This document shows, in pieces, positions 13,288 to 35,408 of a DNA stretch of 55,654 bases (position 1 is the stretch's first letter; each line of letters begins with the position of its first letter). Below the pieces are notes generated by a model. That model was not told where the DNA came from and searched no databases. It saw only the letters and a program-made list of their open reading frames with translations. The stretch is from the NCBI GenBank assembly GCA_031289145.1, contig JAITQA010000058.1:1-55654 (forward strand), written 5' to 3'. The translations under genes and the position numbers were made by a program. This DNA comes from Dysgonamonadaceae bacterium. Lineage in GTDB: Bacteria; Bacteroidota; Bacteroidia; Bacteroidales; Azobacteroidaceae.

Positions 13288-13311
13288 CAGTCATTTAAAT
13301 TCCATTTGACT

Positions 13312-16153: not shown

Positions 16154-16165
16154 AAGGGGATATTT

Positions 16166-17521: not shown

Positions 17522-17542
17522 CAGTTGTTATATTTAATGGCG

Positions 17543-17550
17543 CAAAGGTA
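17543..17550 (-). promoter_or_regulatory. -7 box of lpdA
   Basis: Minus strand TACCTTTG (TAnnTTTG), 21 bases before the ATG at 17521. Confidence 0.6.
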
Positions 17551-17578
17551 GTCCTTTTTGTGCATAAAAACAAAATCA

Positions 17579-18220: not shown

Positions 18221-18324
18221 CTATTATACTATATTAGGGTTTTTATAATGTAAAATTACATAAAAATTTCTCAAATTCCAAACGTGTATCTAAAAAATCA
18301 ACTTATCATTTGGTTGAGAATGAT

Positions 18325-19665
18325 TTAATCTTCGTATCCGTTGGCTTTTGATTTCCATGCCAAAGCGAAAATTGCCGCCGACAGAACAGCTACGACTATT
18401 AATGCGTAAATAGCTGTTATCCAACCGGTTTTTTCAACCAGCAATCCGATACCCCAACCGGAAACAATCGTACTTCCGTAGCCAAACAGTCCGCAGAATC
18501 CTCCGGCTGTAGCTGCTGCCCGCTTGGTCGCTATGTTAGCGGCCGCGATGCCCACCAATGCTTGCGGTCCATAGATGAAAAAACCAGCTGCAATTAAAAT
18601 CAGATTAGCAGCTATCACGGGGCTGTATTCATCAAGCAAACTGAGCGAGATGAGGCACAAGGTCGCCATCGCCATGCAAATCACACAAGTCCGCGGCGCT
18701 CTTCCGCCAAAGAATTTGTCAGTTGACCAGCCTGCAGTAAGCATTCCGGCTATACCGGCTATCTCAAAGGCGGCCACAGACCAGCCTGCATGGCTGATGT
18801 TCAAATGCAAATGCTCTTTCAGCATGGTAGGACCCCAATCAAGTATGGCAAATCGTGTGATGTACAAAAAGAAATTGCCTACCGCGATTATCCATATCGT
18901 CCGATTCAGGAACACTTTTTCCCGTAAGAATGCCTTAAACTCGGCCGATTCCTCTCTTGTCGGTTTACTCGAAACTTTACCTCCTTTCAATTCAGGCAAG
19001 CCCACTGACGACGGAGTATCCCTGACCAGCAGGAACACCAATGCCGTAATTATCAACACAAGGACAGCAGGAATCAGGAAACACCACCGCCAATGTTGTG
19101 AGAAGATGGACGATTCGGGAAAATAGCTACCCCAATTGATGCTGACGATGTATCCGCAAAAGATAATAGCTAATCCCGCTCCAATAGAGTGAGAAATATT
19201 CCAGAGCGACATTTTCGTTGCCAGCTTTTCCGGTGTAATCCAATGGGTCATCAGACGGGTACAGGGAGGTACGCCCATTCCCTGAAACCATCCGTTGATA
19301 ATCCAAAAGACACCTAAAATCAATATGGACGAAGATAATCCGAAAAACAGATTAGCGACAGCACACATCACGATACCCGATGTCAGAAAATAGCGGGCAT
19401 TGCTGCGGTCGCCCCAAATACCGTTGATGAATTTGGACAGTCCGTATATAAGACCATGCAGCGTGAGAAACAGACCTAAATCTGTTTTTGAAATACCCAT
19501 CTCGTCATTCAAATAGGGCATAGCAATGCTGATATTTTTTCGGACAAAATAAAACAAGGCATAGCCGATGATACAAGCAATCATAGTACGGGCCTCCCAA
19601 TATTTGAATCTCTTTTGCTCCTGCACATTTGTTTGCCGAACGGCAACGTCATTCATATTATCCAT
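18325..19665 (-). CDS. MFS transporter of the organophosphate:phosphate antiporter type (GlpT/UhpT-like)
   Basis: 446 residues with about 12 membrane segments. Near residue 40 it has the OPA hallmark FYFVRKNISIAMPYL, and GLIYGLSKFINGIWGDRSNAR near 68-90 is the family's loop 2-3 motif. The cytoplasmic mid-loop lies about 215-245. GlpT and UhpT exchange glycerol 3-phosphate or hexose 6-phosphate for phosphate across the inner membrane. The gene lies 12 bases after a glycerophosphodiester phosphodiesterase gene, so glycerol 3-phosphate (or another polyol phosphate) released outside the cytoplasm is the likely cargo. The phosphate exchange partner is inferred from the family. Confidence 0.88.
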   Translation of the reverse strand: MDNMNDVAVRQTNVQEQKRFKYWEARTMIACIIGYALFYFVRKNISIAMPYLNDEMGISKTDLGLFLTLHGLIYGLSKFINGIWGDRSNARYFLTSGIVMCAVANLFFGLSSSILILGVFWIINGWFQGMGVPPCTRLMTHWITPEKLATKMSLWNISHSIGAGLAIIFCGYIVSINWGSYFPESSIFSQHWRWCFLIPAVLVLIITALVFLLVRDTPSSVGLPELKGGKVSSKPTREESAEFKAFLREKVFLNRTIWIIAVGNFFLYITRFAILDWGPTMLKEHLHLNISHAGWSVAAFEIAGIAGMLTAGWSTDKFFGGRAPRTCVICMAMATLCLISLSLLDEYSPVIAANLILIAAGFFIYGPQALVGIAAANIATKRAAATAGGFCGLFGYGSTIVSGWGIGLLVEKTGWITAIYALIVVAVLSAAIFALAWKSKANGYED

Positions 19666-19677
19666 AGTTCACAGTTG

Positions 19678-20619
19678 TTATTTTGTCCTTTTTACATTAA
19701 GTTCCACAAAATCTGCAGGATAATCGGTCTCGATAATGTCCGGATTGGTCGCAATCTCTTTTTTATAGGCTTCGACTCTGGCCTCCAAGGGATTTATCTT
19801 ATCGGCAGTGGAGGGAATGGAGGTCATGCACATGACACCGTGACTCCGCAATAGCTTGTAAACCTCCAATTGCTCAGGATACATGGTATATGTGACATAG
19901 GCCATGATGCGATTCCAGGGAATGCCTGAATTTTTGTACGTTTCATACATCTCCCGATTGCTTATCTCGCAGCAAAACATCACATTGTTGTTGCGTTCGT
20001 AATAGAACAGACACTCCTTAAGCGAACGCACAGATAGCATGATATTATGGTATTTGCGCCATTTGCCGTTAAGGTTGTCGGCATATACTTGCCAAGGTAC
20101 GCCCTTGTTGTCGAAGTTAAATACTGTTTTATCTTTCCCCCATTCGAGCATCTCGTCCAGTGTCGGTATCTTATACCTTGTTATGTTGCCATTCCTGTCT
20201 TTCAGGTAGAACTGTTGCAACTCGGCGTATGTATAGTCCGAGACCCTGCCCTTTCCTGTGGTTGTACGGTCTATCGTGGCATCGTGCATCAGTACCAGCA
20301 CGCTGTCTTTGGTCAATCGGGGATCTATCTCGAAGAACGAAGGCATCATACTCAATGTTTTTTCACACGAGGCGATGCAGTTTTCGGGATACCATTCCAA
20401 CATTCCTCCGCGATGTCCGCTAATGATAATGTCTTTGTCGGGGGAATAGTGGAAATACTCCTGCAATTCGGTCCTATTTTGGATATGAACGGTATGAAGT
20501 TGTTTTATTTTATCAGGCTGTGTTGGAGTCGTAGAAGAGCCGCCATCACCTCCTTCTCCATATCCGGCCGCCAACAATACAGAGGCCAGCAATAACAATG
20601 ATAGATACTTGTGATTCAT
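19678..20619 (-). CDS. Glycerophosphodiester phosphodiesterase (GDPD family), exported
   Basis: 313 residues from the ATG at 20619, whose ATGA overlaps the stop of the kinase gene upstream; a longer frame to 20670 would overlap that gene more. The GDPD core is clear: GHRGG (first catalytic His) near 70, PEN near 78, FEIDPRLTKDSVLVLMHDATIDRTTTG (in short blocks) near 93-120 with the metal Glu/Asp and second His. It splits glycerophosphodiesters to glycerol 3-phosphate and an alcohol. The N-terminus looks like a lipoprotein signal, but Tyr20 stands where the lipobox Cys is expected (LAAGY). It is probably periplasmic. The next gene is an OPA transporter. Confidence 0.9.
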   Translation of the reverse strand: MNHKYLSLLLLASVLLAAGYGEGGDGGSSTTPTQPDKIKQLHTVHIQNRTELQEYFHYSPDKDIIISGHRGGMLEWYPENCIASCEKTLSMMPSFFEIDPRLTKDSVLVLMHDATIDRTTTGKGRVSDYTYAELQQFYLKDRNGNITRYKIPTLDEMLEWGKDKTVFNFDNKGVPWQVYADNLNGKWRKYHNIMLSVRSLKECLFYYERNNNVMFCCEISNREMYETYKNSGIPWNRIMAYVTYTMYPEQLEVYKLLRSHGVMCMTSIPSTADKINPLEARVEAYKKEIATNPDIIETDYPADFVELNVKRTK

Positions 20620-21551
20620 GATGCTTTTATTTGATTTGAAGTAATCGGCATAGCCCCCTTTTGCGTACAAACGTATGCGGAAATATCCACACCAAGCTTG
20701 TGTGCTTCTCTAATGCTTTTTCCTTGCAACAGGGCTGCGGTAAAAGCGCCGGTAAACGAATCCCCGGCGCCAACCGTATCAGCTACTTGAACTTTGAGTG
20801 TGTCTATGTATGAAGTTTCGTCAGCTGTAAAAACATAACTGCCAATGGCGCCTTTTGTTTCTATTACCATTTTCAAGTTATAAGCTTTGAGAAGTCTTTT
20901 GCAAAAATCCTGTTCAAAAATTTCAGCGGATTGAGCTAAATCGACTTTCGCAAGAAATTGCGGATCAGATCCACAATTATAAAATAGTTTAGCCAAAGCG
21001 ATTACTTCTTCCTCGTTTATTTTAAGGATGTTGCACTTTACTAATGAATTGTGGATTATTTCCTTTGAATAGAAATGTTGCCGCAGGTTGATGTCGAAAA
21101 TCTTCAAGGAATCATTGGGAACGAGTTCCAAAAATCTCAGGATTGTCTCTCTTGAAACCTTGCTTCGTTGCGCCAGTGAACCGAAACAAACGGCCTTGCA
21201 ATTTCGCGCAAGCGCTTCCATTTGAGCAGTAAACGGTATATTGTCCCATGCTGTGTTTTCACAGATTTCGTATTTCGGAACGCCCTTGTCGTCTAAAGTT
21301 ACTTGCACTGTTCCGGTGGGATAATCAACCCTTTCAATCAAATTATTAAGGCGTTTTTCTGCCAATACATCCAAAATTTCCTTGCCGGAAGAATCCTTTC
21401 CGACTGCGCTGACGGCATAACCTTCAAAACCGAACTGCGCTGCATGGTATGCGAAATTAGCAGGAGCGCCTCCCAATACTTTTCCGTCCGGAAGGCAGTC
21501 CCACAGGATTTCGCCGATACCCAGTACTTTGGGAAGTTGTTTCTTTGTCAT
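20616..21551 (-). CDS. PfkB-family carbohydrate kinase (fructokinase-like)
   Basis: 311 residues. The N-terminal sugar-binding signature is GGAPANFAYHAAQFG near residue 27. The C-terminal PfkB signature with the catalytic base is DTVGAGDSFTGAF near 256. Start context IGEILWDCLPDG is typical of the fructokinase branch. It phosphorylates a ketose or related sugar with ATP. It starts three bases after the stop of the mannitol-type dehydrogenase gene, which suggests that the ketose made by that enzyme (fructose if the polyol is mannitol) is the substrate. It overlaps the GDPD gene by an ATGA. Confidence 0.88.
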   Translation of the reverse strand: MTKKQLPKVLGIGEILWDCLPDGKVLGGAPANFAYHAAQFGFEGYAVSAVGKDSSGKEILDVLAEKRLNNLIERVDYPTGTVQVTLDDKGVPKYEICENTAWDNIPFTAQMEALARNCKAVCFGSLAQRSKVSRETILRFLELVPNDSLKIFDINLRQHFYSKEIIHNSLVKCNILKINEEEVIALAKLFYNCGSDPQFLAKVDLAQSAEIFEQDFCKRLLKAYNLKMVIETKGAIGSYVFTADETSYIDTLKVQVADTVGAGDSFTGAFTAALLQGKSIREAHKLGVDISAYVCTQKGAMPITSNQIKAS

Positions 21552-21554
21552 AGT

Positions 21555-23033
21555 TTAGCTGTTTTCTATCAGTTGATTTAATGTGTACTTGATACCGAAA
21601 GTGCGAATGTTATTCAGTATGGAGGCGTAGGTTTGGACGAAATGGACAGAGTTGGACAGGTCATCAAACACGGATTCAAGACCGATGAAAGCCAAGGCAT
21701 CATCCGTAACAGAACGGACAGCCGTTTGGGTCAACTCATCCAGCAAGGCATCCTGAATTGGATAGTCGTAACGACCCTTGGCGTACAGCTCCAGTGTCCG
21801 GCACCAGGCAGCAACCATGAAAGCGCCATAGCGGATAGTCCTACCTTGTGCAAGCTGTTCCCGAATAGTAGGAAGGAGGAACTTCGGCAGTTTGGCTGAA
21901 CTGTCCGAGCAGATGCGAGTGAGTTGGTCTCTGATACAGGGATTAGCAAATCGACGCAATAAGCTATCTTTGTATTCCGACAAGTCGATACCCTCAACGG
22001 CATCAAGGATGGGAGTGGCCTCTTCGTCCATAAAGGCACGGAGTGATCGACAAAGCAGTGGATCTCCAACAGCCTCGTCCACAGTTTGATATCCGCACAG
22101 CGAACCGGCAAAGCCCAAAAAGGAATGTCCGGCATTGAGCAAGCAGATTTTCATCTTCTCAAAAGGGGTGATGTTTGATACAAATTGAACACCTACACGT
22201 TCCCAAGCAGGCCGTCCAGCAGAAAATCGGTCTTCGAGCACCCACTGAATGAATGGCTCGCAGGTCACTGGCCACGCATCTTCAATGTCGGTTGCCCGGC
22301 GCAACAGTGCGATGTCCTCCGATGTGGTGACGGGCGTGATACGGTCGACCATGCAGTTTGGGAAGCAGACTTTTTCGGCTATCCACGACGATAATCCGGC
22401 ATCCGTCAAACGAGTAAAACTCAACAGCATTTTTCGGGTGATATCGCCATTGTGCTGAATGTTGTCGCAAGAAAGGATAGTGAAGGGAGGAATGTCCCTT
22501 TCCCGCCGGATGCGTAAGGCTGAAGTCAATAGACCGAATACCGTTTTGGGTTGGTTGGGATGCTGAATATCCCACTGGACATCGGGGTTATCGGCTATGA
22601 AATCGCCGTTTTGGTCGAAGTTATAGCCGCCTTCGGTGATGGTTAGCGAGACGATGCGGGTCGACAAGTTAGCTAAACGGTCTATGGCAGCTGCCTGATT
22701 GTCGGGTACGAAGACATAGTCCATAATGGAGCCGATGACTCGAGGCTGCATTGTGCCGTCTGGATATTTGACCATGAGTGTATAGAGGTAATCCTGCTCC
22801 TTCAGCGTTTTGGCCATTTGTGCATCGGCAGGCCGGATACCCATCCCAACGATACCCCAATCGGTCAGCCACTTGTTCAGCAGTTCGTCCAGGTAGAAGG
22901 CCTGATGCGTCCGGTGGAAGCCGCCTATACCGATGTGGACAATGGACGGCTTCAGAATTACATCGGGCACAAACAAAGGTTTCTGTAACTCTCTTGCCGA
23001 CAATAGCGTCAAGTTTTTCAAGTTCAATTTCAT
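21555..23033 (-). CDS. Mannitol dehydrogenase-family polyol dehydrogenase
   Basis: 492 residues from the ATG at 23033, which overlaps the symporter stop as ATGA; another ATG two codons earlier (23039) is also possible. It is a polyol-specific long-chain dehydrogenase: an NAD-binding HIGIGGFHRTHQAFYLDELL near residue 35 and the catalytic pattern Lys-x4-Asn-x2-His in KICLLNAGHS near 297-305 (numbered from 23039), matching the known Lys/Asn/His set of Pseudomonas mannitol 2-dehydrogenase. It oxidises a polyol or aldonate at C2 or C5 (mannitol, arabinitol, or fructuronate/tagaturonate in relatives). With the kinase next to it, mannitol to fructose is the simplest reading, but other polyols fit. 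Confidence 0.88.
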   Translation of the reverse strand: MKLNLKNLTLLSARELQKPLFVPDVILKPSIVHIGIGGFHRTHQAFYLDELLNKWLTDWGIVGMGIRPADAQMAKTLKEQDYLYTLMVKYPDGTMQPRVIGSIMDYVFVPDNQAAAIDRLANLSTRIVSLTITEGGYNFDQNGDFIADNPDVQWDIQHPNQPKTVFGLLTSALRIRRERDIPPFTILSCDNIQHNGDITRKMLLSFTRLTDAGLSSWIAEKVCFPNCMVDRITPVTTSEDIALLRRATDIEDAWPVTCEPFIQWVLEDRFSAGRPAWERVGVQFVSNITPFEKMKICLLNAGHSFLGFAGSLCGYQTVDEAVGDPLLCRSLRAFMDEEATPILDAVEGIDLSEYKDSLLRRFANPCIRDQLTRICSDSSAKLPKFLLPTIREQLAQGRTIRYGAFMVAAWCRTLELYAKGRYDYPIQDALLDELTQTAVRSVTDDALAFIGLESVFDDLSNSVHFVQTYASILNNIRTFGIKYTLNQLIENS

Positions 23034-24577
23034 TGGCATAGCTTTCTTTTCCCTACACTACAAACCAGAAAACTTAAGCTACCGCCTATTACGACCCACC
23101 ATGGCCAAGCCAATCGGACAGGATTGCCCCAAAGGAATTCCGACCACCATGAAAGCAGAGGAGGCTGAAGCAAGAAGACTACAACACATCCGGTGACAAG
23201 AGCGGCAATCACACTGGCCACATTGCCTCTTTTTGTCAATACGGCGCATAGAAATACGCCCAACAATCCGGCATAAGAGAAGCTCATGATACCTAATGCA
23301 AAATCGACCAGAGATTGATCGCCTGCTTCCTGTATAAATGCAGCGACTATGGCAAAAGCGGTCAAGACTAACCCCATAATGGCAACCATGATACGGGATT
23401 CTTTCAACTGTTCGGCAGCGCCCTTATCTTTTTTGCCGAATTTCTTTTTCAGGGGAATGTATATATCCGAAACCAAACTGCTTGTCATCGAATTGATAGC
23501 AGAATTAAAACTGGACAAAGCGGCCGCCAGCAGACCTACTACCATCAATCCGAGAAAACCTGAAGGAAAATGATTGAACATGTACTGAGGGAAAACCTGC
23601 CGACTATCGTTCAATGTATCGGTGGGAAAAGCGTCACCCATCAGTTGAGGACAAGAGTAGAAGGCATATAATAATACTCCTATTACCAAGAAAATCAAGC
23701 CGATAGGTAATGAAATAATCTGTGAATAAATAAGAGATTTGGCAGCCTTTTTAGGCGATTTACAAGTGAGTTGCCGTTGCACAAATTCTTGATCTGTGCT
23801 ATACTGTGCAATTTTAAAAATGGTACAGGCTATCAAAGCACCCATCAAATTGTAAGGCACTGAAAAAGAAAAACTGCTGTCGACTACTTGTAATTTGTTT
23901 ATCTCTCCTCCTCCGGTCGCAGGCGCATGTTGTAAGGCATCAACTATTTCCGGCAAAGAGGCCGGAATACTGATATAGAGAAATACAATAGCAAATATGC
24001 CTGTAGCAATCACTAATAATATCTGAATGGTATCAATATAAAGTAGTCCTTTGATTCCTCCCGCCATCGTATAAAGTGTGCTGATGACACCCAATAATGC
24101 AATTGAAATGACAAGATTAGTGATATAAATATCATTGTAAATCATGACAGATATTGCGATAGCAGCGATAAAAAGCCGCGAGCCGGACGTCAGCAATTGC
24201 CCCAGTAGGAACATAACGCTTGACGCTCCTTTTGCACTACCTCCGAATCGTTGTCCAAGATAGCCGTATATGGTAATTGTGTTTGCCTTATACAAAGCGG
24301 GCAAAATAATATAAGCAGCAAGGTATCCGCCAATGATAGCGCCGAAGTTTAACATGATATAAGTCATGTTTGTATCGAAAGCGATTTGCGGCGAGCCAAC
24401 GAAAGTTCCGGCGCTGATGGAAGTTCCTACAACGGCAAAAGCGACCAGCCAAGTAGGCATGCTTCTGTCTCCAAGAAAATAGTCGCGAATGTTTTTGTTT
24501 TTGCGTGAAAACAAGAATCCTATGGCGGTCATCAGCCCCAGGAAAACAATGACTATAAGCCAATCAAGTAGCTTCAT
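23030..24577 (-). CDS. Sodium:solute symporter (SSS family)
   Basis: 515 residues with about 13-14 membrane segments. The N-terminus (DWLIVIVFLGLMTAIGFLFSRKNKNIRDYFLGDRSMP in short blocks) and the motif VGTSISAGTFVGSPQIA near 50-65 are typical of SSS sugar or acid symporters; so is SFNSAINSMTSSLVSDIY near 355-372. It imports a sugar, polyol or carboxylate with sodium. Position directly before the polyol dehydrogenase, with overlapping stop and start, points to the polyol or its glycoside as cargo. Confidence 0.9.
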   Translation of the reverse strand: MKLLDWLIVIVFLGLMTAIGFLFSRKNKNIRDYFLGDRSMPTWLVAFAVVGTSISAGTFVGSPQIAFDTNMTYIMLNFGAIIGGYLAAYIILPALYKANTITIYGYLGQRFGGSAKGASSVMFLLGQLLTSGSRLFIAAIAISVMIYNDIYITNLVISIALLGVISTLYTMAGGIKGLLYIDTIQILLVIATGIFAIVFLYISIPASLPEIVDALQHAPATGGGEINKLQVVDSSFSFSVPYNLMGALIACTIFKIAQYSTDQEFVQRQLTCKSPKKAAKSLIYSQIISLPIGLIFLVIGVLLYAFYSCPQLMGDAFPTDTLNDSRQVFPQYMFNHFPSGFLGLMVVGLLAAALSSFNSAINSMTSSLVSDIYIPLKKKFGKKDKGAAEQLKESRIMVAIMGLVLTAFAIVAAFIQEAGDQSLVDFALGIMSFSYAGLLGVFLCAVLTKRGNVASVIAALVTGCVVVFLLQPPLLSWWSEFLWGNPVRLAWPWWVVIGGSLSFLVCSVGKRKLCQ

Positions 24578-24595
24578 ATTGTTTTTATTAGTGGT

Positions 24596-25465
24596 TTAGT
24601 ATTCATATATTCTTTTTAAATTGTACACGCCGCCATCCTGCTGGCCACAGTACAACAGCAAGTTGTTTCGGTAAAAGTCGATATCTTCCGGTTCTCCGTC
24701 TACAACCGATTGAATATCAATTATTTTTTCGATTCGATGGGTTTTCAGATTGACTACGATGATGTCACGGTGGGCATCTTTGCGCTTTTCCGTTGTGGGA
24801 GAGCTGTGTAGTCCAACAGGCAGATAGAGGTGGCCTTTATGAATAGAGGCGCCTTGAGACAGATTCGGGAAGCCTATTTCAAACTCTTCGATGAGGTCTT
24901 TCTTTGTGAAGACAACCTCCTTCTTGTCGAGTGTAGGCAACGGATACTTAGTAATCAGGTATTTCTTTGTCCCGATAGAATCAATTACATCCGATATTTT
25001 CGACAAGGCATATAGACATTTTTGGTTTCTGTCGACTACCCAGTCAAAACCGATGCGCCCTTCGGCATCAATCTTCAATACCTGAATCAATTGCGATCCA
25101 CTGCGCGTAACGCTTTCCACAAAACAACGCCGTTCTCCATAACATTCGGCGACGTAAAAGGCTGGAAACTCTTTATTCCCAGCCGGAAAATCTACACCGA
25201 AGGAAGCGTTATTGCAATGGTTTTCCTTATACACGGCACAGGCCAAGTCGAAGTCTGCAACCAGCTTTTCACTTTTCAGGTCATAAATCCGGCAATGCCC
25301 GCCGTTATTGAGCAGGAACGCTGAACTTTTATAAATAGCCATCCCCTGTGCAGCCTCCTTGTTGTAAGATGCAGGAAAGGGATACTTCTCTGCTTTTTGC
25401 GCAGCCGATAGCAACGGCAATGCCAATAATAGCGGCAGCAGAAACCACCTCTTGATATTTTTCAT
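24596..25465 (-). CDS. Exported protein of unknown function, possible beta-propeller
   Basis: 289 residues from ATG 25465 (an ATG three codons upstream is less natural). The signal peptide is KRWFLLPLLLALPLLSAAQ. The mature part has repeated strands of the type 'hydrophobic-turn-hydrophobic' (CRIYDLKSEKLVADFDL, RIGFDWVVDRNQKCLYALS, HRIEKIIDIQSVVDGEPEDIDFY), consistent with a small propeller of the Bacteroidetes BF3164/6-bladed type. Several cysteines (CAVYKENHC, CYGERRC) could form disulfides. No catalytic motif was recognised. It lies between the symporter and two other unknown genes of the locus with tight spacing, so it probably works on the same substrate, perhaps as a binding protein. 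Confidence 0.6.
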   Translation of the reverse strand: MKNIKRWFLLPLLLALPLLSAAQKAEKYPFPASYNKEAAQGMAIYKSSAFLLNNGGHCRIYDLKSEKLVADFDLACAVYKENHCNNASFGVDFPAGNKEFPAFYVAECYGERRCFVESVTRSGSQLIQVLKIDAEGRIGFDWVVDRNQKCLYALSKISDVIDSIGTKKYLITKYPLPTLDKKEVVFTKKDLIEEFEIGFPNLSQGASIHKGHLYLPVGLHSSPTTEKRKDAHRDIIVVNLKTHRIEKIIDIQSVVDGEPEDIDFYRNNLLLYCGQQDGGVYNLKRIYEY

Positions 25466-25486
25466 GACTGTCATGTTTAACTTGTT

Positions 25487-25822
25487 CTATCCTTTCAACG
25501 CAATTTGAATGTTGAGTCGGAAACTTGGTTGCTCGCCGCTGACTTGGCAGTCCAATCGTAGCCAGTTGCCGAAATGTTTCACCCGTATGAAATGAAGCCC
25601 TTTCTTCGTTATCGGATCGGATACCGTGCCCTCTTTGACCCAGTTGACCCCGTCGTGAGATATTTCGACTGCGGCCGAGAGCGACGGATTTTGGCCGGAC
25701 AAGCCCTCTACCATAATAAAGAAGATACATTCGCTCGCCCAACCCGCTTCGTAGGGATTGGTTTGGAAATCTTCTGTAAATTCCTTTTTTACTTCAAGAT
25801 GTGATGCATTAAATAGTTTCAT
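25487..25822 (-). CDS. Small protein of unknown function in the carbohydrate locus
   Basis: 111 residues, no signal peptide or membrane segment. It appears mostly beta, with alternating patterns such as ECIFFIMVEGLSG, SAAVEISHDGVNWVKEG and FIRVKHFGNWLRLDCQVSG, like a small jelly roll. The last resembles discoidin/CBM-like strands, but this is only an impression. It begins 34 bases after the 312-residue unknown gene and ends 12 bases before the propeller-like one, so it is within the operon. I do not recognise the family. Confidence 0.6.
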   Translation of the reverse strand: MKLFNASHLEVKKEFTEDFQTNPYEAGWASECIFFIMVEGLSGQNPSLSAAVEISHDGVNWVKEGTVSDPITKKGLHFIRVKHFGNWLRLDCQVSGEQPSFRLNIQIALKG

Positions 25823-25856
25823 TGTTTACTTGATTTAAATATTAGAAATGGCTGTT

Positions 25857-26795: not shown

Positions 26796-26824
26796 AAAAT
26801 ATATTTAATTGTTTGTTTATTTAT

Positions 26825-28168
26825 TTAATTACATTGATAAGGCCCAAATATTCCTTTTATCTTATATTCTTCATTCGAATCATCCAACACATATACCGTA
26901 TATTGAAGAGCGCTAGGACTGACACGCACGACAATATGGCCTTGCATACTACGAATTCTAGACGTATAATTATTCAGAAGCACTTTGTTCGCATCCATGA
27001 CACATGTGCTGAAGATATCGGTGCTTTTGTCGTAAAACCGCTTGGTAGTGGCCGGATAGGGATGCTTTTCTCTCCATGCATGAACCAACACTACTTTCGG
27101 ATTCAATTTTTCCACCAGGACATCGCTATTACAATTAGAGGTACAGTGATGATTGGCTTTCATTACATCTACGGCGGTTACTACATCGGCTACCGGTTTT
27201 TCGACATCTAACCAGGGGTAAAGTGAACGGTTGGTATATTGCAGGTCTGCTCCGGCAAAATAATTGAACCTACCATACTTCAATTGAAATCCGATACTAA
27301 ATATATTCTCATTCTTGTAGGTAGCTGCATTGATTACACTAGCATCCGGCAGCATGTTTGTCACTTCGACGCCAGTTCCCGTCCAAACTTTACCATTTCC
27401 AACGATATTCCGGATTTGAAAGTTATTGTATTTGGAGGGGTTTTGCTTTAATACAATCTGGTCGGTTTTACCGACATCAAATTGTTCGGCTGTGGCTCCA
27501 TAAGCCGCTTTACTCCAATTGACAAACTTGATATAATTACCGACCATGGCAGTTGCAGCCAAATTTGTCGGAAAATTATAATTGGGATACCCCCTGTCGA
27601 GAATTTTGTCAAACTTAACTTTCGCTCCTACTTCCGTAATTCCGTTCATACGGAAATCAGCCGAAGGAGCCATTGGCAAGGTCGCTGCATAGGTACCCAT
27701 GTGATCGCCATGAAAATGGGTCAGCAAGATGTAATTGAGTTTATTGCTGGCTGCCTTGGCAAAATAGTTTACGTAATTGGTTATCGCTTGTCCTGATGTA
27801 ACAGAAATACTGGGTTTAGGAGGCGTCGGCGGTACACCATCATCGGCATCTTCATCTCCATTTGCCAACATATCGTTCATCAGCGACCCGGCTGCATCTA
27901 CCAACATGGTGGTACCATCCGGAAAAATGTATAGTGTGCTCTCTCCCCTACCTGTATTAATGGTATGAATGTCTAAGTAGCCCTCTTCCCAATCGGGTAA
28001 TACTTTGCCGACTAAATATCCAGTCCCATTATTGCCATTACCACCTGGTACTTTACCGTTTTCATCATCGTCATCGGGTTTAGCGCAACCCAAAGAGAAA
28101 GGATAGGCTGTGGCAAGGGTCGCCATACCTAACGCTTTTAACATATCTCTTCTCGTCAATATTTTCAT
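26825..28168 (-). CDS. Exported metallo-beta-lactamase-fold hydrolase (ComEC/Rec2-like MBL), Tat-type lipoprotein
   Basis: 447 residues. The N-terminus has a twin-arginine motif (TRRDMLKALG) followed by a hydrophobic stretch and a lipobox-like SLGC, so a Tat-exported lipoprotein is predicted. The MBL metal motif is THFHGDHMG near residue 150. Downstream ANHHCTSNCNSDVLVEKLNPK near 345-365 resembles the HHGS..S....L..L.P block of ComEC-type MBL proteins; here Cys-Thr-Ser replaces the usual Gly-Ser. Related domains are nucleases or phosphodiesterases. Lying between SusD and unknown locus genes, with 29-base spacing on each side, it may act on a phosphodiester-containing ligand; this is inference. 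Confidence 0.82.
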   Translation of the reverse strand: MKILTRRDMLKALGMATLATAYPFSLGCAKPDDDDENGKVPGGNGNNGTGYLVGKVLPDWEEGYLDIHTINTGRGESTLYIFPDGTTMLVDAAGSLMNDMLANGDEDADDGVPPTPPKPSISVTSGQAITNYVNYFAKAASNKLNYILLTHFHGDHMGTYAATLPMAPSADFRMNGITEVGAKVKFDKILDRGYPNYNFPTNLAATAMVGNYIKFVNWSKAAYGATAEQFDVGKTDQIVLKQNPSKYNNFQIRNIVGNGKVWTGTGVEVTNMLPDASVINAATYKNENIFSIGFQLKYGRFNYFAGADLQYTNRSLYPWLDVEKPVADVVTAVDVMKANHHCTSNCNSDVLVEKLNPKVVLVHAWREKHPYPATTKRFYDKSTDIFSTCVMDANKVLLNNYTSRIRSMQGHIVVRVSPSALQYTVYVLDDSNEEYKIKGIFGPYQCN

Positions 28169-28197
28169 ATTTTTATTATTTGTTTTTTAAGAATTTA

Positions 28198-29904
28198 TCA
28201 ATAACCGGGATTCTGGCTTATATTTTTGTTAATCATAACATCACTTGTAGGAATTGGCAACAAGTATTGTCGCATTTGAAAATTTCTCGGAACGATTATT
28301 CTTATTTTACCTGTTTGATACATCTTGGTAAAATCAGGACATCCGTTTTCATCTATTTCCGGCAATACATCTTGGGGGAAGAAATAGTCTCCATTGTTGT
28401 AATTTGTTGTCAATCCAGCCTTCTCCAGCAAACCATATTTTGGTCGTGTGATCGTTATCTCGGCGATACGCCAACGAACCAAATCGTAGAACCTACGGTT
28501 TTCCCACGCCAATTCCATGCGGCGTTCGGTGCGAAGAATGGTGCGAAGTTTGGCTTGGTTCGTTTCGGTGATAGCCGGATACTTGGTGGTTTCGGTCAGT
28601 TTAACTTTGTAAGCACGGGCGCGTACCTGATTGATAGCATCAAGAGTGGAAGCGTCGATTTCATTCAGCTCAATTTTCGCTTCGGCATACATCAGCAAGA
28701 CGTCGGCATACCGCATCCATATCACACTCTTATCTGTTTCTTTATCATCCGTCCATTCTTCATCTACCCCTTTTTTCAGGCACATACCATTATTAGCAGC
28801 CCATACATCGTTGGCATACGAATCTTTATTTGTAACCTGTTTATTGGTGCTGAGATTCAGAACTGTCGTAGCCTTGGGGCTTGGGTCGTAAATATATCCG
28901 AGGAACGACGTCCCAAATTCAACACAAGTATAGGCACAACGAGGATCTCTGTTTTTGAACGGTTCCTTTGGGCTGTACAGTGGCGATTTGTCTATAGGCA
29001 GCCCGTCAGTACAGAGGAAGGCGCAAAACAGGTCCCACGAAGGTTGACAATTGGCTGTTCCTGCTGGATTACGGGGGAGAAACATGGTGGTAGATTCGGC
29101 GTTATCCAACAACATCTTGGAACGTGGCTGCACGAAAATAAACTCCGAAGACGTCCTTGTCTTCGACAAAAACATATTGCCGAAATCGGAATGCAGGGAG
29201 TAAACATCCAAATCAATACAGCCCTTGGCAGCATCGCGGGCTTTAGCATAGTCAAGAAACCAGGTCGCTGTTCTAGCCTTGAACGCGTAGGCCGCTCCTT
29301 TTGTCACTCGCTGCACTCCGTTGTAAGATTTTGGCAAAACCTCAATAGCCTTGTCAAAGTCTTTGTAAATCTGTTCTAAAATTACATTTTTATCCGTCCT
29401 TCCCATTTTGAAAGCATCCTCTATTGAGAGATACTCTGTGTAAAACGGAACATCACCCCACAGGAATATCAAATAGGAATAAAAGACAGCCCGGAAAAAA
29501 CGCGCTTCTGCGTCAAAGCGCTGCAATTGTTCGTCCGTAATATTCCCTTTTGCATGTTCCAAACTGGCTATAATGGTGTTTGTTCTTGTAACACCTTTGT
29601 ACAAATTATCCCAAGTATTTTCTATATAATCTTGATCGCCGGTCAATGTTCCTGACGACCATTGATACATGGTTGTACGATGTTGGAAATCGTCGGTTTC
29701 ACGATCGGAATGATAGAATCTATAGCCCTCTTCCCAATAAATCATAATCGGACGGTAGAGATTTTCGAGCGCCATTGTTATTTCCTGCTCGTTGCTATAC
29801 CAATTTTCACTTGAACCCTCAGACAACGGATTCAGATCCAAATTTTGACAGCCCGTAAAGAACAACAAGACAGCCGTTATTGTCGATAATATTAAGTTTT
29901 TCAT
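28198..29904 (-). CDS. SusD/RagB-family outer-membrane lipoprotein
   Basis: 568 residues. A lipoprotein signal ends in FFTGC (Cys near residue 19), followed by NLDLNPLSEGSSENWYSNEQEI, a typical SusD start. The C-terminal RagB/SusD domain is clear in TERRMELAWENRRFYDLVRWRIA near residues 460-485. SusD lipoproteins lid the SusC transporter and bind the glycan or peptide ligand. The gene lies 12 bases after susC, the normal order. The 399-residue open frame antisense to it is not a gene. Confidence 0.95.
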   Translation of the reverse strand: MKNLILSTITAVLLFFTGCQNLDLNPLSEGSSENWYSNEQEITMALENLYRPIMIYWEEGYRFYHSDRETDDFQHRTTMYQWSSGTLTGDQDYIENTWDNLYKGVTRTNTIIASLEHAKGNITDEQLQRFDAEARFFRAVFYSYLIFLWGDVPFYTEYLSIEDAFKMGRTDKNVILEQIYKDFDKAIEVLPKSYNGVQRVTKGAAYAFKARTATWFLDYAKARDAAKGCIDLDVYSLHSDFGNMFLSKTRTSSEFIFVQPRSKMLLDNAESTTMFLPRNPAGTANCQPSWDLFCAFLCTDGLPIDKSPLYSPKEPFKNRDPRCAYTCVEFGTSFLGYIYDPSPKATTVLNLSTNKQVTNKDSYANDVWAANNGMCLKKGVDEEWTDDKETDKSVIWMRYADVLLMYAEAKIELNEIDASTLDAINQVRARAYKVKLTETTKYPAITETNQAKLRTILRTERRMELAWENRRFYDLVRWRIAEITITRPKYGLLEKAGLTTNYNNGDYFFPQDVLPEIDENGCPDFTKMYQTGKIRIIVPRNFQMRQYLLPIPTSDVMINKNISQNPGY

Positions 29905-29916
29905 TATATTTACCTT

Positions 29917-32900
29917 TTAAAATTTAACCTGTACACCAAAATTAACTGTTCTAGCAATGTATGCATTTGTAGCAGTTTCCGGGTCCCAACCTTTAGGATA
30001 GTTGTCTATCGAGAAAAGGTCGGAAGCAGAAGCCCAAAGTCGCACATTGGAGAGATTTGCCCAATTGACAATCTTTTTGGGCAGCGTATAACCCAAAGTG
30101 ATGTTTTGCAGACGGAAGTATGAGCCGTCAAACAACCAATAGTCGGACATTTTATAATTGTTTCCTCCTGTTGTCGAAAGGCGCGGATATTTGGCCGCCG
30201 CGTTCTGCTCGTCTGTATTGTAGTGGCTAAAATACTCACCCTCTATAAACTTGGGGAAAGTGTACCAAGCCGACGTGACATGAACCATATCTTCGGCTAT
30301 CACACTATTCTTTTTTCCCACTCCCTGAAATGCCATCGACATATCGAACCCTTTATAGCTCGCATTGATGTTGCCGCCGTAAATATATCTTGGCAACGAA
30401 CCGCCCAGCAATACACGGTCGTATTCAGGACTTATCTTACCATCGGGCACACCATCAGGGCCGCTCACGTCCTTATATTTCACGTCACCCACTTTGGCCG
30501 CTGCGCTTAGTAAGGGAGAGTGTGCCAAATCATCCTCTGTCAAAAATAGACCATCAGTCAGGTAGCCAAACCATTCGGCATACTCACTGCCTTCGCGGAT
30601 GATGGTGCTTCCGTCGAACACGGTGCCTGACAAATTCCCCATTACCGACTTGTAATCGGATAGGTTGGCGCTTATCGAGTACCTGAAACCGCCTATCTTG
30701 TCTCTCCATTCTACCTGCAAATCCCAACCTTTGGTATTCATGATGCCGGCATTTTGTTCGGGATTATTATAACCCATATAGTTCGGAATTTCAAGTGCCA
30801 ATAACATGTCGTGGGTAGTTTTCTTATATGAGTCGAAAGTCAATGATAGACGATTGAAAAGGATGGCGTCCAAACCAACGTTGAATACCTCCGTTCTTTC
30901 CCACGTTATATCCTGTATGGCGTATCTCATTTGAGCAGCCGTATTGTGTGCTACGATATTTTGTCCATCCATGAGAAGAGTAGTCATGAAAGACATAGAC
31001 GCCTGATAAGGATAGTTTCCTACGCGCTCATTACCCAAGTTTCCCCACGAACCCCTGAATTTCAGGAAGGAGAGTGGATTAAGGTTGATTTTCTTGAGAA
31101 ACGGCTCTTCGGTGATCACCCAGCCTACCGAAAAAGAGGGGAATATACCCAAGCGGTAATTGCGGTGGAATCTTGACGATTGGTCAGCACGTATATTGGC
31201 TTGGAACAGGTACCGGTTAGCGAAGTCATAGTTGACTCTTCCGAAGTAGGAACGGTAAGCATTTTCACTTGCGTTGCCCGAAACAGCCAAATAATTTAAG
31301 TTGGCTCTGTTCAAATAGGGAAAACTTGACAACTCCATCATGTCACTGGAAGCGCCAAGCGATTCGGAGAATGCATAATAATCTTCGTAACCTGCCAACA
31401 GAGAGAGGTCGTGAACTTTGCTCAGTGTGACGGCATAGTTGGCCAGTAATTGCTTGGTGGTCGTGCGTGTTTCTCCTCTCGATTCACTTAGGCTGTTGTT
31501 AAGATTACTGGTAATATAGCCTAATAATTGGGTTGGGTCATAATAATCATAGTAGGGAATCTGTTTCACGAATGTTTTCTCTTTACTTAACGAAACTGTT
31601 GGCGCATACACGCCTGTAATAGTGAAACCTTTTAGCGGAGTGAAGTCCAAAGCCATTCTTCCGGTGAAATAGTCAGTCCATGAATTATCGAATCCGCCGT
31701 AGTTCAAACGGGCGTACGGATTTATACCATCCCGACCGGCAGAGATACGACCATCAGGATAGACCGGCGACCACAACGGGCCATATTTGTAGGCAGCCTC
31801 AAGCGGGTTGATGCTCGTATTTTCAGAAATGCCACGACGATATGCACCGTTGACCGTTGCCGACAGGTAATTATTGACTTTGATGCTATTATTTACGCGG
31901 GCTGTAATTGTCGCATGAGAACGGTGGTTGTACAACGCATCCGTCTTTTCATAGCCAATGGAGGCCTTTGATTTAATGACTTTGTTTCCATAATTGACTG
32001 AAAGATCGTGTTTCTGTCTGGGCGCAGAATTATTGATAAGGTAATCTTTCCAGTCGGCAATGGGATAGGCAACCGGGTCAAGCGCATGGTTTCCAGCATA
32101 ACTTTCAATGAAATCCTTGGAATAAGTGAAATACTCCTGGCCTGGTACATTTAACCCTTCGTTCCAAGAAGTTTCGTTAATCATTTCCATGTAACGCTTG
32201 TAGTCAACCACCTCCGGAAATGTAGTTGCTTTCACAATGCCCACTGTCCCCGAATAATCAACGCTCAGCGCCCCTTCTTTGGCTGTTTTGGTCGTCACCA
32301 AAATGACGCCTGCCGAAGCTCTTGCACCATAAATAGAGGCAGAAGCAGCATCCTTTAAGACAGAAATACTTTCGATATCATCCACATTCATATTGAGGCT
32401 GCCCGGGATTCCATCCACAAGAATCAAGGGGTCGGACGTGCCGATGGTGGTGATGCCGCGTACCCGAATGGTTGCACCGGCTCCCGGCATTGAGTTGGAA
32501 CGGGTAACCTGTACGCCCGGCATTGAACCTTGCAATGCCTGCGATACTGAGGTAGCCTGAATAGAGGCAAGTTTTTCGCCGCCCACACTGGCAACCGAAC
32601 CACTCAAGTCAGCCTTCTTAATCACACCATATCCGATGACAACTACCTCGTCCATGACTTTGATGTCCTCTTCCAACGTAATGGACAAATCTGTTCGGTT
32701 GCCAACTGCAATTTCCTGCGTAACATACCCCAGATACGAAACCTGGAGTACTGCTCCGGGCGAAACAGTCAACGTAAACTGTCCGTCCGTATTGGTAGAA
32801 ATACCATTTGTCGTGCCTTTTTCACTGACGCTTGCGCCGATAACAGGCTCGTCGCTTGCATCAACAACTGTCCCTGTTACTTTTTGCTGTGCAAACACAG

Positions 32901-32952
32901 TAAACGAACACATTAGGATACATAGTACCGCTAAAATAAACTTTTTTTTCAT
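29917..32952 (-). CDS. SusC/RagA-family TonB-linked outer-membrane protein
   Basis: 1011 residues. It has a signal peptide ending VFAQQ (residue 23), a CarboxypepD_reg-like domain (KVTGTVVDASDEPVIGASVSEKGTTNG, about 24-100), the SusC signature near the plug start (MDEVVVIGYGVIKKADLSGSV), a TonB-dependent plug with RIRGITTIG..DPLILVDGIPG, and a C-terminal beta barrel ending in the aromatic-terminated VNFGVQVKF. It imports the ligand captured by SusD using TonB energy. The length is normal. No ECF sigma/anti-sigma pair or hybrid two-component regulator lies nearby. No exact -7 box was seen in the 63 bases upstream, so it may be read from a promoter farther upstream (35474-35481). Confidence 0.96.
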   Translation of the reverse strand: MKKKFILAVLCILMCSFTVFAQQKVTGTVVDASDEPVIGASVSEKGTTNGISTNTDGQFTLTVSPGAVLQVSYLGYVTQEIAVGNRTDLSITLEEDIKVMDEVVVIGYGVIKKADLSGSVASVGGEKLASIQATSVSQALQGSMPGVQVTRSNSMPGAGATIRVRGITTIGTSDPLILVDGIPGSLNMNVDDIESISVLKDAASASIYGARASAGVILVTTKTAKEGALSVDYSGTVGIVKATTFPEVVDYKRYMEMINETSWNEGLNVPGQEYFTYSKDFIESYAGNHALDPVAYPIADWKDYLINNSAPRQKHDLSVNYGNKVIKSKASIGYEKTDALYNHRSHATITARVNNSIKVNNYLSATVNGAYRRGISENTSINPLEAAYKYGPLWSPVYPDGRISAGRDGINPYARLNYGGFDNSWTDYFTGRMALDFTPLKGFTITGVYAPTVSLSKEKTFVKQIPYYDYYDPTQLLGYITSNLNNSLSESRGETRTTTKQLLANYAVTLSKVHDLSLLAGYEDYYAFSESLGASSDMMELSSFPYLNRANLNYLAVSGNASENAYRSYFGRVNYDFANRYLFQANIRADQSSRFHRNYRLGIFPSFSVGWVITEEPFLKKINLNPLSFLKFRGSWGNLGNERVGNYPYQASMSFMTTLLMDGQNIVAHNTAAQMRYAIQDITWERTEVFNVGLDAILFNRLSLTFDSYKKTTHDMLLALEIPNYMGYNNPEQNAGIMNTKGWDLQVEWRDKIGGFRYSISANLSDYKSVMGNLSGTVFDGSTIIREGSEYAEWFGYLTDGLFLTEDDLAHSPLLSAAAKVGDVKYKDVSGPDGVPDGKISPEYDRVLLGGSLPRYIYGGNINASYKGFDMSMAFQGVGKKNSVIAEDMVHVTSAWYTFPKFIEGEYFSHYNTDEQNAAAKYPRLSTTGGNNYKMSDYWLFDGSYFRLQNITLGYTLPKKIVNWANLSNVRLWASASDLFSIDNYPKGWDPETATNAYIARTVNFGVQVKF

Positions 32953-33015
32953 TTACTATAACTTTTTAAGTTTAACAATATATTTTATTCATTCTCAATT
33001 TTAAATTTTCAGTTT

Positions 33016-33933
33016 TCAGTTTTTACCTTTTAGTTTTAATTCCCTCCTATAAGGTATAGCGTCCTGCATCCCCATTCGGGTTACGGTAATAGCAGCGGCT
33101 TTACAGGCCATTTTCACAGCTTCAACGATGCACATGCCTTCTGTTAGACCCACGCATAAGGCTCCGCAAAAGGTATCGCCTGCTGCGGTAGTGTCTATTG
33201 CCGTTACTTTTTCCGCTGCAATTTCGTAGTATTGTCCATCTTTTTCCCGAACAAGCGCCCCTTTTGAACCCATTGTGATAATGACGGTTTCTACACCTTT
33301 TTCATGAATACGGTCAGCTGCCTTTCGCGCCGAAGCCCAATCGTTGACATAAATGCCGGTCAACAATTCCGCTTCTGTTTTGTTAGGTACAATAATTTGT
33401 ATCTGTTGTAGTAATTTGGGTGGAATTGCTTGTACGGGCGAAGGATTGAGTATTATTTTCACTCCTTTTTCCGCTGCAATTTTAGCGATATATTCTACCG
33501 TTTCCATGTGAATTTCCAATTCCATCAACAAAATACATGCATTTTCTATTTCGGCGCGTGCTTTTTCGATATCTTTTACCGACAGGGTTCTGATTGCGCC
33601 TTGTGCTATCGAAATACACTTTTCACCTGAAGCGTCCATCAAAATCAGCGCAACCCCCGAAGGATTGTCCATATCCGAAAAAACATAATCGGTTGCAATA
33701 CCTTCCGATTTGTACAATTCCAACGATTGCTTTCCTAAAAGGTCGTTGCCTGTTTTGGTGATAAACGACACATTCCCTCCCATGCGGGCAATGGCAACTG
33801 CCTGATTGGCGCCTTTTCCTCCGGAATTCATCATAAACTGTCCTCCGGCAATGATTTCGCCCGGCACGGGAAGCCGGTCGGTTTTAATTACCATATCGGT
33901 ATTTGAACTGCCTATAACTACGATTCTATTCAT
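33016..33933 (-). CDS. rbsK: Ribokinase
   Basis: 305 residues. It has the PfkB N-terminal signature GGKGANQAVAIARMG (residues 39-53) and the C-terminal DTTAAGDTFCGAL near 250. Start IVVIGSSNTDMVIKTDRLPVPGET-like sequence is diagnostic of ribokinase rather than fructokinase. It phosphorylates ribose (or a deoxy or related pentose) at O5. The ATG shares one base with the stop of the T9SS-protein gene (TAATG), so translation is probably coupled. It is the second PfkB kinase of the locus, the other lying next to the polyol dehydrogenase. Confidence 0.9.
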   Translation of the reverse strand: MNRIVVIGSSNTDMVIKTDRLPVPGEIIAGGQFMMNSGGKGANQAVAIARMGGNVSFITKTGNDLLGKQSLELYKSEGIATDYVFSDMDNPSGVALILMDASGEKCISIAQGAIRTLSVKDIEKARAEIENACILLMELEIHMETVEYIAKIAAEKGVKIILNPSPVQAIPPKLLQQIQIIVPNKTEAELLTGIYVNDWASARKAADRIHEKGVETVIITMGSKGALVREKDGQYYEIAAEKVTAIDTTAAGDTFCGALCVGLTEGMCIVEAVKMACKAAAITVTRMGMQDAIPYRRELKLKGKN

Positions 33934-35408
33934 TATTTTACAATAATCCGTTGGGTAGCAAATAGTTTTTCAGGTGTCTGGATTTGCAGAAAAAAAATAC
34001 CTTTTTGAGAAGGGGCAGGTATACCTCTACTCACATTTTTTAGTTGTTGCACTAATCTTCCTGTTGCATCAAAAACGTAAATGTTCACTTTTCCTATTCC
34101 TTCCGGTAAACCAAGGTTCAATAGCTGTCCTTCTTTTACTACCGATGGATAAACCTTAACTCCAGATTTACTCTGAGTAACAGATTCTATACCTGTTACA
34201 TAGGATAGGTTAGTTATAAGAAGATTATTCAAGCAAAAACGCGCACTTGCGACCGTTGTGACATCCGGTCCTTTGGCATCCCAAACTACTTTTGTTTCCG
34301 AAGTAGCTCCTTCAATATTTATAACTAAATGTGTCCAAAATTTCCGGTCGTCATTATTAGCACTTTCCCACGCAGGAAGTATTCCGCCTACACTTCGGTC
34401 GCTGGAAATAACTAAAGAAGTGCCGGTAGCGCCTCCGATTGGCGTTAATGTTGTAATTGCATTATCTGCATTGGTGCCGCCATACGTAACACCATTCTCT
34501 ATCAAATCGATATAAGACGCTGATGTAATAGAACCCGGACCCTCCACTTGGAAATAGAAACTTCCGACAGTAGGAAAACGACAAATATCGAATTCGACTT
34601 TCACATTGGAAGCGCCACTCAATTTACTACCGAATGCAGGCGTTTTAAGAATACCATAAGTGGTACCGGTAGCGGCAGTACCATTACTCAGCCGCAGATA
34701 ACCAACATGTTCATAAATATTCGTTAACTCCCAGCCCTCCAAACCTCTGTTTTTAACAAACAATGGAGCATTGCTCGAATGAATGCCGGTATTTACTGTA
34801 GCGGATGTTGCACCAGAGACTATGGTAACAGTAGCAGGTTCAGTACCATCATAATCAGCGGGAATAATTGATGCTGCCGGATAACGATAAGGATTATTCT
34901 CTTTAGTGGTTCTACCCATTATCCAGTCGCCACCCCATTGAAAAAGATCGAAACGTTCGTTGATTATAATCCTGGGATCGTTTTCCGGAAGTGCAACATA
35001 ATAACGAGGAACGGCGTCCGCATTACTAAAATCAATTCTAACGAATACATCACCTCCTTGTCCTGTGTAAATCCATAGCGGCAAGCCTCCATCATTACTC
35101 AGTTTCAATTGACCAATACTTTTATCAACATAAGAGCCAGCCCAACTAATAGGACTACCCGTGGCGGGTACTGTTCCAACTCCACCATTTCCACTGAATG
35201 GAGTATAACCATAATCAACGCCATCTATTTCTATGACGAACGGAGCATCAGTAGAGAAATTCGCAACTCCCTCTGCTACATTATTTTCGGGATTCCAATT
35301 CAAGGTGGACACACCTACTTTCACTACCTTTGCCGACACTGTGGTTGTAAAACCTGCAACTATAGTTGCAAATACAACCGATAAAATAATCAAAAAATTC
35401 TTTTTCAT
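33933..35408 (-). CDS. Secreted protein with type IX secretion C-terminal sorting domain
   Basis: 491 residues from the ATG at 35408; a longer frame adds 13 residues before the signal peptide and is less likely. The signal is KKNFLIILSVVFATIVAGF...SA. The middle has beta-rich, Gly/Thr/Ser-rich regions without a known catalytic motif (YLRLSNGTAATGTTYGILKTP, KVEFDICRFPTVGSFYFQVEG), suggestive of carbohydrate-binding-like jelly rolls. The last 85 residues are a Por_Secre_tail domain: GVKVYPSVVKEGQLLNL, VNIYVFDATGRLVQQL, ending GIFFLQIQT..ATQRIIVK. It should be exported by the T9SS to the surface. It probably binds or degrades the same ligand as SusC/SusD. Confidence 0.8.
   Translation of the reverse strand: MKKNFLIILSVVFATIVAGFTTTVSAKVVKVGVSTLNWNPENNVAEGVANFSTDAPFVIEIDGVDYGYTPFSGNGGVGTVPATGSPISWAGSYVDKSIGQLKLSNDGGLPLWIYTGQGGDVFVRIDFSNADAVPRYYVALPENDPRIIINERFDLFQWGGDWIMGRTTKENNPYRYPAASIIPADYDGTEPATVTIVSGATSATVNTGIHSSNAPLFVKNRGLEGWELTNIYEHVGYLRLSNGTAATGTTYGILKTPAFGSKLSGASNVKVEFDICRFPTVGSFYFQVEGPGSITSASYIDLIENGVTYGGTNADNAITTLTPIGGATGTSLVISSDRSVGGILPAWESANNDDRKFWTHLVINIEGATSETKVVWDAKGPDVTTVASARFCLNNLLITNLSYVTGIESVTQSKSGVKVYPSVVKEGQLLNLGLPEGIGKVNIYVFDATGRLVQQLKNVSRGIPAPSQKGIFFLQIQTPEKLFATQRIIVK

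Follow-up and report, generated by a model that had tools for sequence, protein, structure and literature searches.

A 55,654-nucleotide window of contig JAITQA010000058.1, from a Dysgonamonadaceae bacterium, was analyzed. In it, 13 minus-strand genes at 18325–35408 follow one another with intergenic gaps of −10 to 63 bases (open reading frame (ORF) coordinates of the whole window; Table 1). We read this run as a SusCD-centered modular scavenging operon for a phosphodiester-linked sugar or polyol compound, a reading to which we give a probability of about 0.5. Adjacent SusC and SusD genes are present, but glycoside hydrolases (GH), polysaccharide lyases (PL) or carbohydrate esterases (CE) were not recognized in the operon, and the locus is therefore not filed as a classical polysaccharide utilization locus (PUL).

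In the proposed route, SusCD would import the ligand. A lipoprotein of the metallo-β-lactamase (MBL) fold, replacing glycoside hydrolases, would cut a phosphodiester bond either on the cell surface or inside the periplasm, and an exported glycerophosphodiester phosphodiesterase (GDPD) would free glycerol phosphate, or a comparable polyol phosphate, from what is left of the diester. The organophosphate (OPA)-type transporter would bring this phosphate into the cell, and a sodium:solute symporter (SSS) would admit the sugar or polyol part. In the cytoplasm, DUF6772 and DUF6385 may act on the imported sugar or polyol as a two-protein unit; we favor an enzyme that cleaves or isomerizes a sugar conjugate. 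A mannitol-family dehydrogenase would oxidize the polyol to a ketose, which the PfkB kinase would phosphorylate. Behind this route stand gene content and order, co-occurrence, family membership, conserved metal and catalytic residues and predicted folds; the substrates, the reaction directions, the location of the steps and the joint action of DUF6772 and DUF6385 are inferred.

A core shared by Bacteroidota loci

DUF6772 is rare. Among 247 genomes of the order only that of the window has it, and among 395 of the phylum two do, again counting the window's. A scan of contigs revealed 23 loci; with genome G354 these make up 18 other Bacteroidota loci and six verrucomicrobial loci. The Bacteroidota carriers are metagenome-assembled genomes (MAGs) of Candidatus Symbiothrix, Dysgonamonadaceae and Tannerella, then Sphingobacterium, Parapedobacter and Niabella, and further Bacteroidetes/Bacteroidales MAGs. 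The verrucomicrobial loci come from Opitutaceae, Puniceicoccaceae and another Verrucomicrobia MAG. One Candidatus Symbiothrix MAG encodes two DUF6772 proteins, 92% (L019, the nearest relative) and 81% identical to that of the window, both on contig JAISKM010000084.1; the 92% suggests that the window's organism is akin to Symbiothrix.

Gene content of these loci was counted by tblastn at E ≤ 1e-5. The 18 Bacteroidota loci lie on 17 contigs (L019 and L021 overlap). DUF6385, SusC and SusD were each found in 16 of the 18 and the MBL gene in 17; the two loci without SusCD, L026 and L032, are cut short. An SSS symporter is present in 13 loci, in two of them of the window's subtype. The PfkB kinase occurs in eight, the dehydrogenase in six (partial in L022), GDPD in six (weak in L024), and the predicted β-propeller protein and a zinc-type alcohol dehydrogenase in five each (the latter a remnant in G354, with one gene counted for both L019 and L021). 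His_Phos_2-type phosphatase genes are seen in four, by similarity to that of L031, which itself matches the Pfam family. The core is SusCD–MBL–DUF6772–DUF6385, to which the polyol and GDPD branches are often added.

The first-pass annotation had also counted a type IX secretion system (T9SS) protein, a ribokinase and, perhaps, a HAD phosphatase into the system. These are rejected as core because they occur in none, one and none of the 18 relatives, respectively. The HAD phosphatase is probably outside the system, given the 104 bases that separate it from the OPA gene and its absence from all relatives. A close OPA gene was likewise found in none of the 18 (two have matches of 22–23% identity and 56 bits to the major facilitator superfamily, MFS) and is particular to the window. 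None of these four genes should define the system. In the six verrucomicrobial loci, DUF6385 is present in all and SSS in three; SusC, SusD, MBL, FAD oxidoreductase, dehydrogenase and GDPD gave no match in any of them.

Two loci with defective DUF6772 genes were excluded from the structure alignment and included in the counts: L030 (RUG345), where the gene at 9983–10918 is interrupted, and L041 (a Tannerella MAG), where 9911–10341 is a fragment. The rest of each locus stands. In the relatives, Pfam was run on chosen unlabeled neighboring ORFs, and glycoside hydrolases in their flanks may have been missed. L019 and L021 have separate SusCD sets and lie approximately 14.6 kb apart. In a Bacteroidales MAG from horse faeces (L040), a 938-residue frame at 12651–15467 combines matches to LacI-type regulator domains with a later match to FAD_oxidored. 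In G354 (L016), the locus has a gene with a Piwi domain (Argonaute-like; 3496–5565) on its upstream side.

Phosphodiesterase candidates and the OPA transporter

As a single sequence, the MBL protein of the window scored below the Pfam cut-off (20.9 against 22.7 bits). A profile of 23 MBL sequences, searched against solved chains, matched the teichoic-acid phosphorylcholine esterase Pce/CbpE (1wra, 2bib) best, at E 2.6e-12 and with both metal-site segments aligned, although this kinship is remote. ComEC-type chains followed at a best E of 7.7e-9, and the five distinct sequences that pass E 0.01 are all of Pce/ComEC type. Residues H151, D155, H156, D308, H340 and H341 are kept in all 31 rows of the alignment (30 distinct genes, one being seen from two loci), whereas residue 153 is His in the window and Asp in G354. 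The profile match and the conserved residues together place the protein in the two-metal-site fold of the Pce/ComEC type. Cys28 is present in 30 of the 31 rows, thus suggesting that these proteins are lipoproteins. From its profile, the MBL protein is likely a phosphodiesterase, in agreement with the first-pass annotation.

The subfamily is rare, although 17 of the 18 related DUF6772 loci have it: at E ≤ 1e-25 it was seen in five of 244 genomes from the order, the window's included. In G030, G014 and G176 it stands in other neighborhoods. Loci L027 and L030 (four MBL genes each) and L028 and L029 (three each), from Bacteroidales/Bacteroidia MAGs, carry these beside one DUF6772 and one DUF6385 gene.

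The second candidate, GDPD, has H86, R87, E114, D116 and H129 in all six sequences compared (the window's and those of five relatives). We take these H-R, E-D and H residues to be catalytic; with the PF03009 score they place the protein in its family. The transporter reached 313 bits with the GlpT model TIGR00712, under the cut-off of 632.55, and is described here as OPA-type and not as GlpT.

At E ≤ 1e-20, three of 99 genomes from the order carry GDPD, namely G006, G019 and that of the window. In both G006 and G019 the GDPD gene (47–48% identity) and an OPA gene (59%) are on one strand, as in the window, with one gene between them. In G019 this gene resembles glycerol-1-phosphate dehydrogenase (187 bits against a cut-off of 413; Pfam Fe-ADH_2), and that of G006 looks alike by eye; the window operon has no such gene. 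A HAD gene is next, with a divergent regulator of DeoR type (families were run for G019 only); a GlpD-like gene is also present in G006. These stretches, 9 and 16 kb long, showed no SusCD and, unlike the window, no MBL, DUF6772 or polyol genes. In these two genomes the close GDPD–OPA pair stands in a glycerol-phosphate-like setting. In the window's own genome, the best match to PF13685, the glycerol-1-phosphate dehydrogenase check, is 33.5 against 28 bits (the control matched 13 of 14).

Similar sets do recur beside SusCD. Genome G060 (L045) has ECF/FecR, SusC, SusD, MBL (35%), a TIG/NHL protein, an OPA-like gene (29%) and GDPD (35%), and no DUF6772. The window's own genome, which has three GDPD genes, holds a second SusCD locus on contig C75 (L049, C75:26500-45796; 6780-19296) with SusC, SusD, three DUF4988 proteins, GDPD (39%) and an OPA-like gene (28%); one of the DUF4988 proteins ends in an NAGPA phosphodiester-glycosidase domain. 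The combination of SusCD, GDPD and an OPA-like transporter therefore recurs.

These data bear on the alternative that one transcript serves two functions. The genes from SusCD through MBL, DUF6772, SSS and dehydrogenase to PfkB would then handle a sugar, sugar-acid or polyol conjugate, and GDPD–OPA, perhaps with HAD, would be a glycerophosphodiester module appended by chance or for co-regulation. The SusCD-free pairs of G006 and G019, the missing close OPA in all 18 relatives and the nearest relative L019, whose GDPD is only 41% identical and which has no OPA, are consistent with this view. Against it, GDPD without OPA adjoins DUF6772 and SusCD in six of the 18 relatives, the sets on C75 and in G060 recur, and an ATGA overlap joins the kinase and GDPD genes; a tree of nine GDPD sequences leaves the place of the window's gene unresolved. 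We regard the two-function explanation as possible but doubtful. Co-conservation with SusCD, a point raised in the first-pass annotation, finds support for GDPD in part of the relatives and for OPA-like sets, and none for the close OPA.

The DUF6772–DUF6385 pair and the polyol branch

Two of the three proteins first listed as unknown carry Pfam names, DUF6772 and DUF6385; only the propeller protein has none. The DUF6772–DUF6385 gene pair occurs in four phyla, with DUF6385 beside DUF6772 in 16/18 Bacteroidota, 6/6 Verrucomicrobiota, 4/4 Alphaproteobacteria and 1/1 Actinomycetota loci examined. In 13 of the 16 Bacteroidota loci the two are at most 60 bases apart; of the remaining three, L028 and L029 have MBL genes between them, and in L032 the distance is 1.4 kb. 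DUF6772 was found in seven records of a plasmid collection (five were examined, one of these without annotation) and had no match in viral contigs. A literature search for both families together found no paper.

Across 28 DUF6772 sequences of the four phyla, 39 residues are invariant, many of them charged. The predicted fold is a concanavalin/L-type-lectin-like sandwich, which is the fold of lectins and also of some lyases; the check for a GH or PL fold among the unknown proteins, named in the first-pass annotation, therefore does not come out cleanly. One alternative is an ordinary PUL with an overlooked glycosidase or lyase of a new kind, which could be DUF6772, the propeller or the T9SS protein. 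The invariant charged residues would suit such an enzyme, as would Foldseek matches of the model that include polysaccharide lyase family 18 and alginate lyase vAL-1. However, those matches have TM-scores of 0.2–0.4, VIA-align ranks lectins first, a search of solved chains with the DUF6772 profile gave no match up to E 1, no signal peptide is seen by inspection, and the T9SS protein is missing from all relatives. We consider a missed glycosidase highly improbable. The top Foldseek matches, receptor-binding domains of clostridial toxins (TM 0.2–0.3), were read as sharing the common lectin-like sandwich and not as kin.

The C-glycoside deglycosidase DgpBC offers an analogy for joint action of the pair. 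There, two unlike proteins act as one enzyme after an oxidoreductase, and the DgpC subunit is isomerase/epimerase-like (PMC12141560). DUF6772 differs in being a predicted β-sandwich, and we claim no homology to this system.

The dehydrogenase, with both Mannitol_dh domains over cut-off, belongs to the mannitol 2-dehydrogenase family, and its best solved match is the mannitol dehydrogenase 1lj8 (E 4e-137). It scored 385 bits with the D-arabinitol 4-dehydrogenase (DalD) model NF043014, under the cut-off of 600. The family also includes fructuronate and tagaturonate reductases. Judged by family, mannitol, arabinitol and others are possible substrates. The route through polyol dehydrogenase and kinase, as first outlined, is plausible and accompanies the core in part, not throughout. 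The predicted model of the propeller protein is nearest to glutaminyl cyclases; GH43- or GH32-type entries were not among the best 50 Foldseek matches listed, an absence that proves nothing. Pfam scores listed for PfkB in the run are 227 and 125 bits. The ribokinase fell short of NF008353 (330 against 341 bits). Bacteroides ribose utilization systems also combine SusCD with ribokinase; here the gene is in the operon, but in only one of the 18 relatives.

Operon layout and the nature of the locus

Every ORF of the tight minus-strand run was found at the position and on the strand first reported. From the operon head, the gaps are −1 (T9SS protein to RbsK), 63 (to SusC), 12 (to SusD), 29 (to MBL), 29 (to DUF6772), 34 (to DUF6385), 12 (to the propeller), 18 (to SSS), −10 (to the dehydrogenase), 3 (to PfkB), −4 (to GDPD) and 12 bases (to OPA). 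LPD follows HAD after 57 bases. The ATGA overlap of kinase and GDPD holds if GDPD starts at ATG 20619 instead of the listed TTG 20670. The families that the Pfam scan listed for the run's proteins (P0001–P0014) include none of glycoside hydrolases, polysaccharide lyases or sulfatases, which bears out the first-pass statement. Two carbohydrate-binding families came up, both far under cut-off: CHB_HEX (E 0.24, T9SS protein) and CBM9_2 (E 0.12, MBL protein).

A Bacteroidetes-type promoter pattern, built on what we take to be the consensus, had no match in 17,575–49,127, either within the run or at its head. A sigma-70 scan gave 72 promoter-like sites (40.7 expected) and 23 terminator-like sites (17.6 expected), and was set aside as uninformative in this phylum. 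The gene that borders the operon on its upstream side (35641–37149) is divergent. Its 502-residue product matched nothing in Pfam at E ≤ 0.1, and to call it a regulator would be guesswork.

Table 1. Genes of the SusCD operon and the HAD gene beyond it (whole-window coordinates; scores in bits).
Feature	Coordinates	Strand	Evidence
T9SS-exported protein	33933..35408	−	sorting domain 24.6 vs cut-off 23; no other domain over cut-off
Ribokinase (RbsK)	33016..33933	−	TIGR02152 341 vs 299.65
SusC-type TonB-dependent transporter	29917..32952	−	Pfam Plug/CarbopepD_reg
SusD	28198..29904	−	Pfam 166
MBL-fold protein, Pce/ComEC-type, likely phosphodiesterase	26825..28168	−	twin-arginine signal and lipobox Cys by inspection
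DUF6772	25857..26795	−	Pfam 288; no signal peptide by inspection
DUF6385-like small protein	25487..25822	−	Pfam 27.1 vs cut-off 26.8
Exported β-propeller protein (predicted model)	24596..25474	−	signal by inspection; no Pfam name
SSS sodium:solute symporter	23030..24577	−	SSF 127
Polyol dehydrogenase, mannitol 2-dehydrogenase family	21555..23039	−	Mannitol_dh domains 164 and 148
PfkB sugar kinase	20616..21551	−	nearest solved chain 2qhp, labeled fructokinase
Exported GDPD	19678..20619 (start ATG 20619)	−	PF03009 67.9 vs 23.6
OPA-type MFS transporter	18325..19665	−	MFS_1 163; PgtP/GlpT/UhpC-like, under their cut-offs
HAD phosphatase	17579..18220	−	Pfam HAD; 104-base gap after OPA

Among described systems, the nearest kind is the phosphate utilization systems (PUS) of Flavobacterium. 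PUSI and PUSII of Flavobacterium johnsoniae have SusCD-like complexes beside periplasmic phosphodiesterases or a phosphatase that replace carbohydrate-active enzymes; phosphate depletion induces them, and their enzymes are PhoA1 and phosphodiesterases of other kinds (PMC8115612). Our locus is alike in placing SusCD beside phosphodiesterase-family genes (GDPD over cut-off, MBL by profile). It differs from the PUS by its MBL and GDPD, its carbon catabolism (dehydrogenase, kinases, SSS) and the DUF6772–DUF6385 pair. A literature search combining PUL, metallo-β-lactamase, SusC and phosphodiester found no paper.

The phosphodiester half of the proposed route is strengthened by this analysis and has gained independent support, and the polyol half is plausible. 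Teichoic-acid-like polymers, glycerophospho-sugars and phospholipid head groups, which the first-pass annotation named, are candidate substrates. Several observations weigh against the scheme. It is not conserved in full, since GDPD and the dehydrogenase occur in six relatives each, PfkB in eight and a close OPA in none. An FAD oxidoreductase is encoded in 14 of the 18 relatives and nowhere in the window's run, and L024 has SusCD without MBL. The counts do not amount to 18 independent events because some loci closely resemble each other (the pairs L027/L030, L028/L029 and L039/L040) and L019/L021 share a contig. The MBL-fold class catalyzes many reactions, and the similarity to Pce/ComEC proteins is remote. 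The GlpD-type glycerol-3-phosphate oxidase domain PF16901 gave no match in the window's own genome, nor in the control Bacteroides genome (6 of 14 in the control matched). Outside Bacteroidota, finally, the DUF6772–DUF6385 pair adjoins sugar-acid genes: an MR/MLE gene in all four annotated alphaproteobacterial loci (that of L010 resembling sugar-acid dehydratases), an HpcH gene like that of 2-keto-3-deoxyglucarate aldolase in three of the six verrucomicrobial loci, and a kinase of SBD_N/NBD_C (acid-sugar) type near the pair in verrucomicrobial L033. MBL or GDPD relatives were not detected at E ≤ 1e-3 in 11 non-Bacteroidota stretches. Given these neighbors and this absence, the pair may act on a substrate without phosphate.

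L010 and L013 do have other annotated MBL-fold genes, and L011 an annotated metallophosphoesterase, none of them adjacent to the pair. L033 and, by similarity, L036 contain a GH63-like gene.

The sugar-acid neighbors, and the reductases within the dehydrogenase family, would fit an MBL protein that is a lactonase or esterase, in a locus that imports a sugar-acid conjugate and has DUF6772–DUF6385 feeding a sugar-acid pathway. The MBL profile, which at E ≤ 0.01 matches Pce and ComEC-type chains only, argues otherwise, as do GDPD and His_Phos_2, phosphate enzymes by family, and the dehydrogenase, which matches mannitol dehydrogenases best. We find this reading unlikely.

Beyond the phosphodiester reading of this operon, we tentatively put forward, as somewhat short of an even chance, that such loci form a distinct SusCD class. 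In it, lipoprotein phosphodiesterases of the Pce/ComEC-type MBL kind, up to four genes per locus, would replace glycoside hydrolases. DUF6772–DUF6385 would be a new cytoplasmic two-protein enzyme that handles a sugar or polyol conjugate after import; four phyla would share it, probably by horizontal transfer, and different importers would serve it (SusCD with SSS, TonB receptor, ABC).

Annotation of SusCD loci normally starts from their carbohydrate-active enzymes and becomes difficult where these are lacking. The Bacteroidota records that bear the core are named after termite gut, rumen, goat, horse and cultured free-living strains. The recurring SusCD–MBL–DUF6772–DUF6385 core can serve as a marker for a putative nutrient route of Bacteroidota based on phosphodiesters, and DUF6772–DUF6385 is a small, testable two-protein unit found in four phyla.

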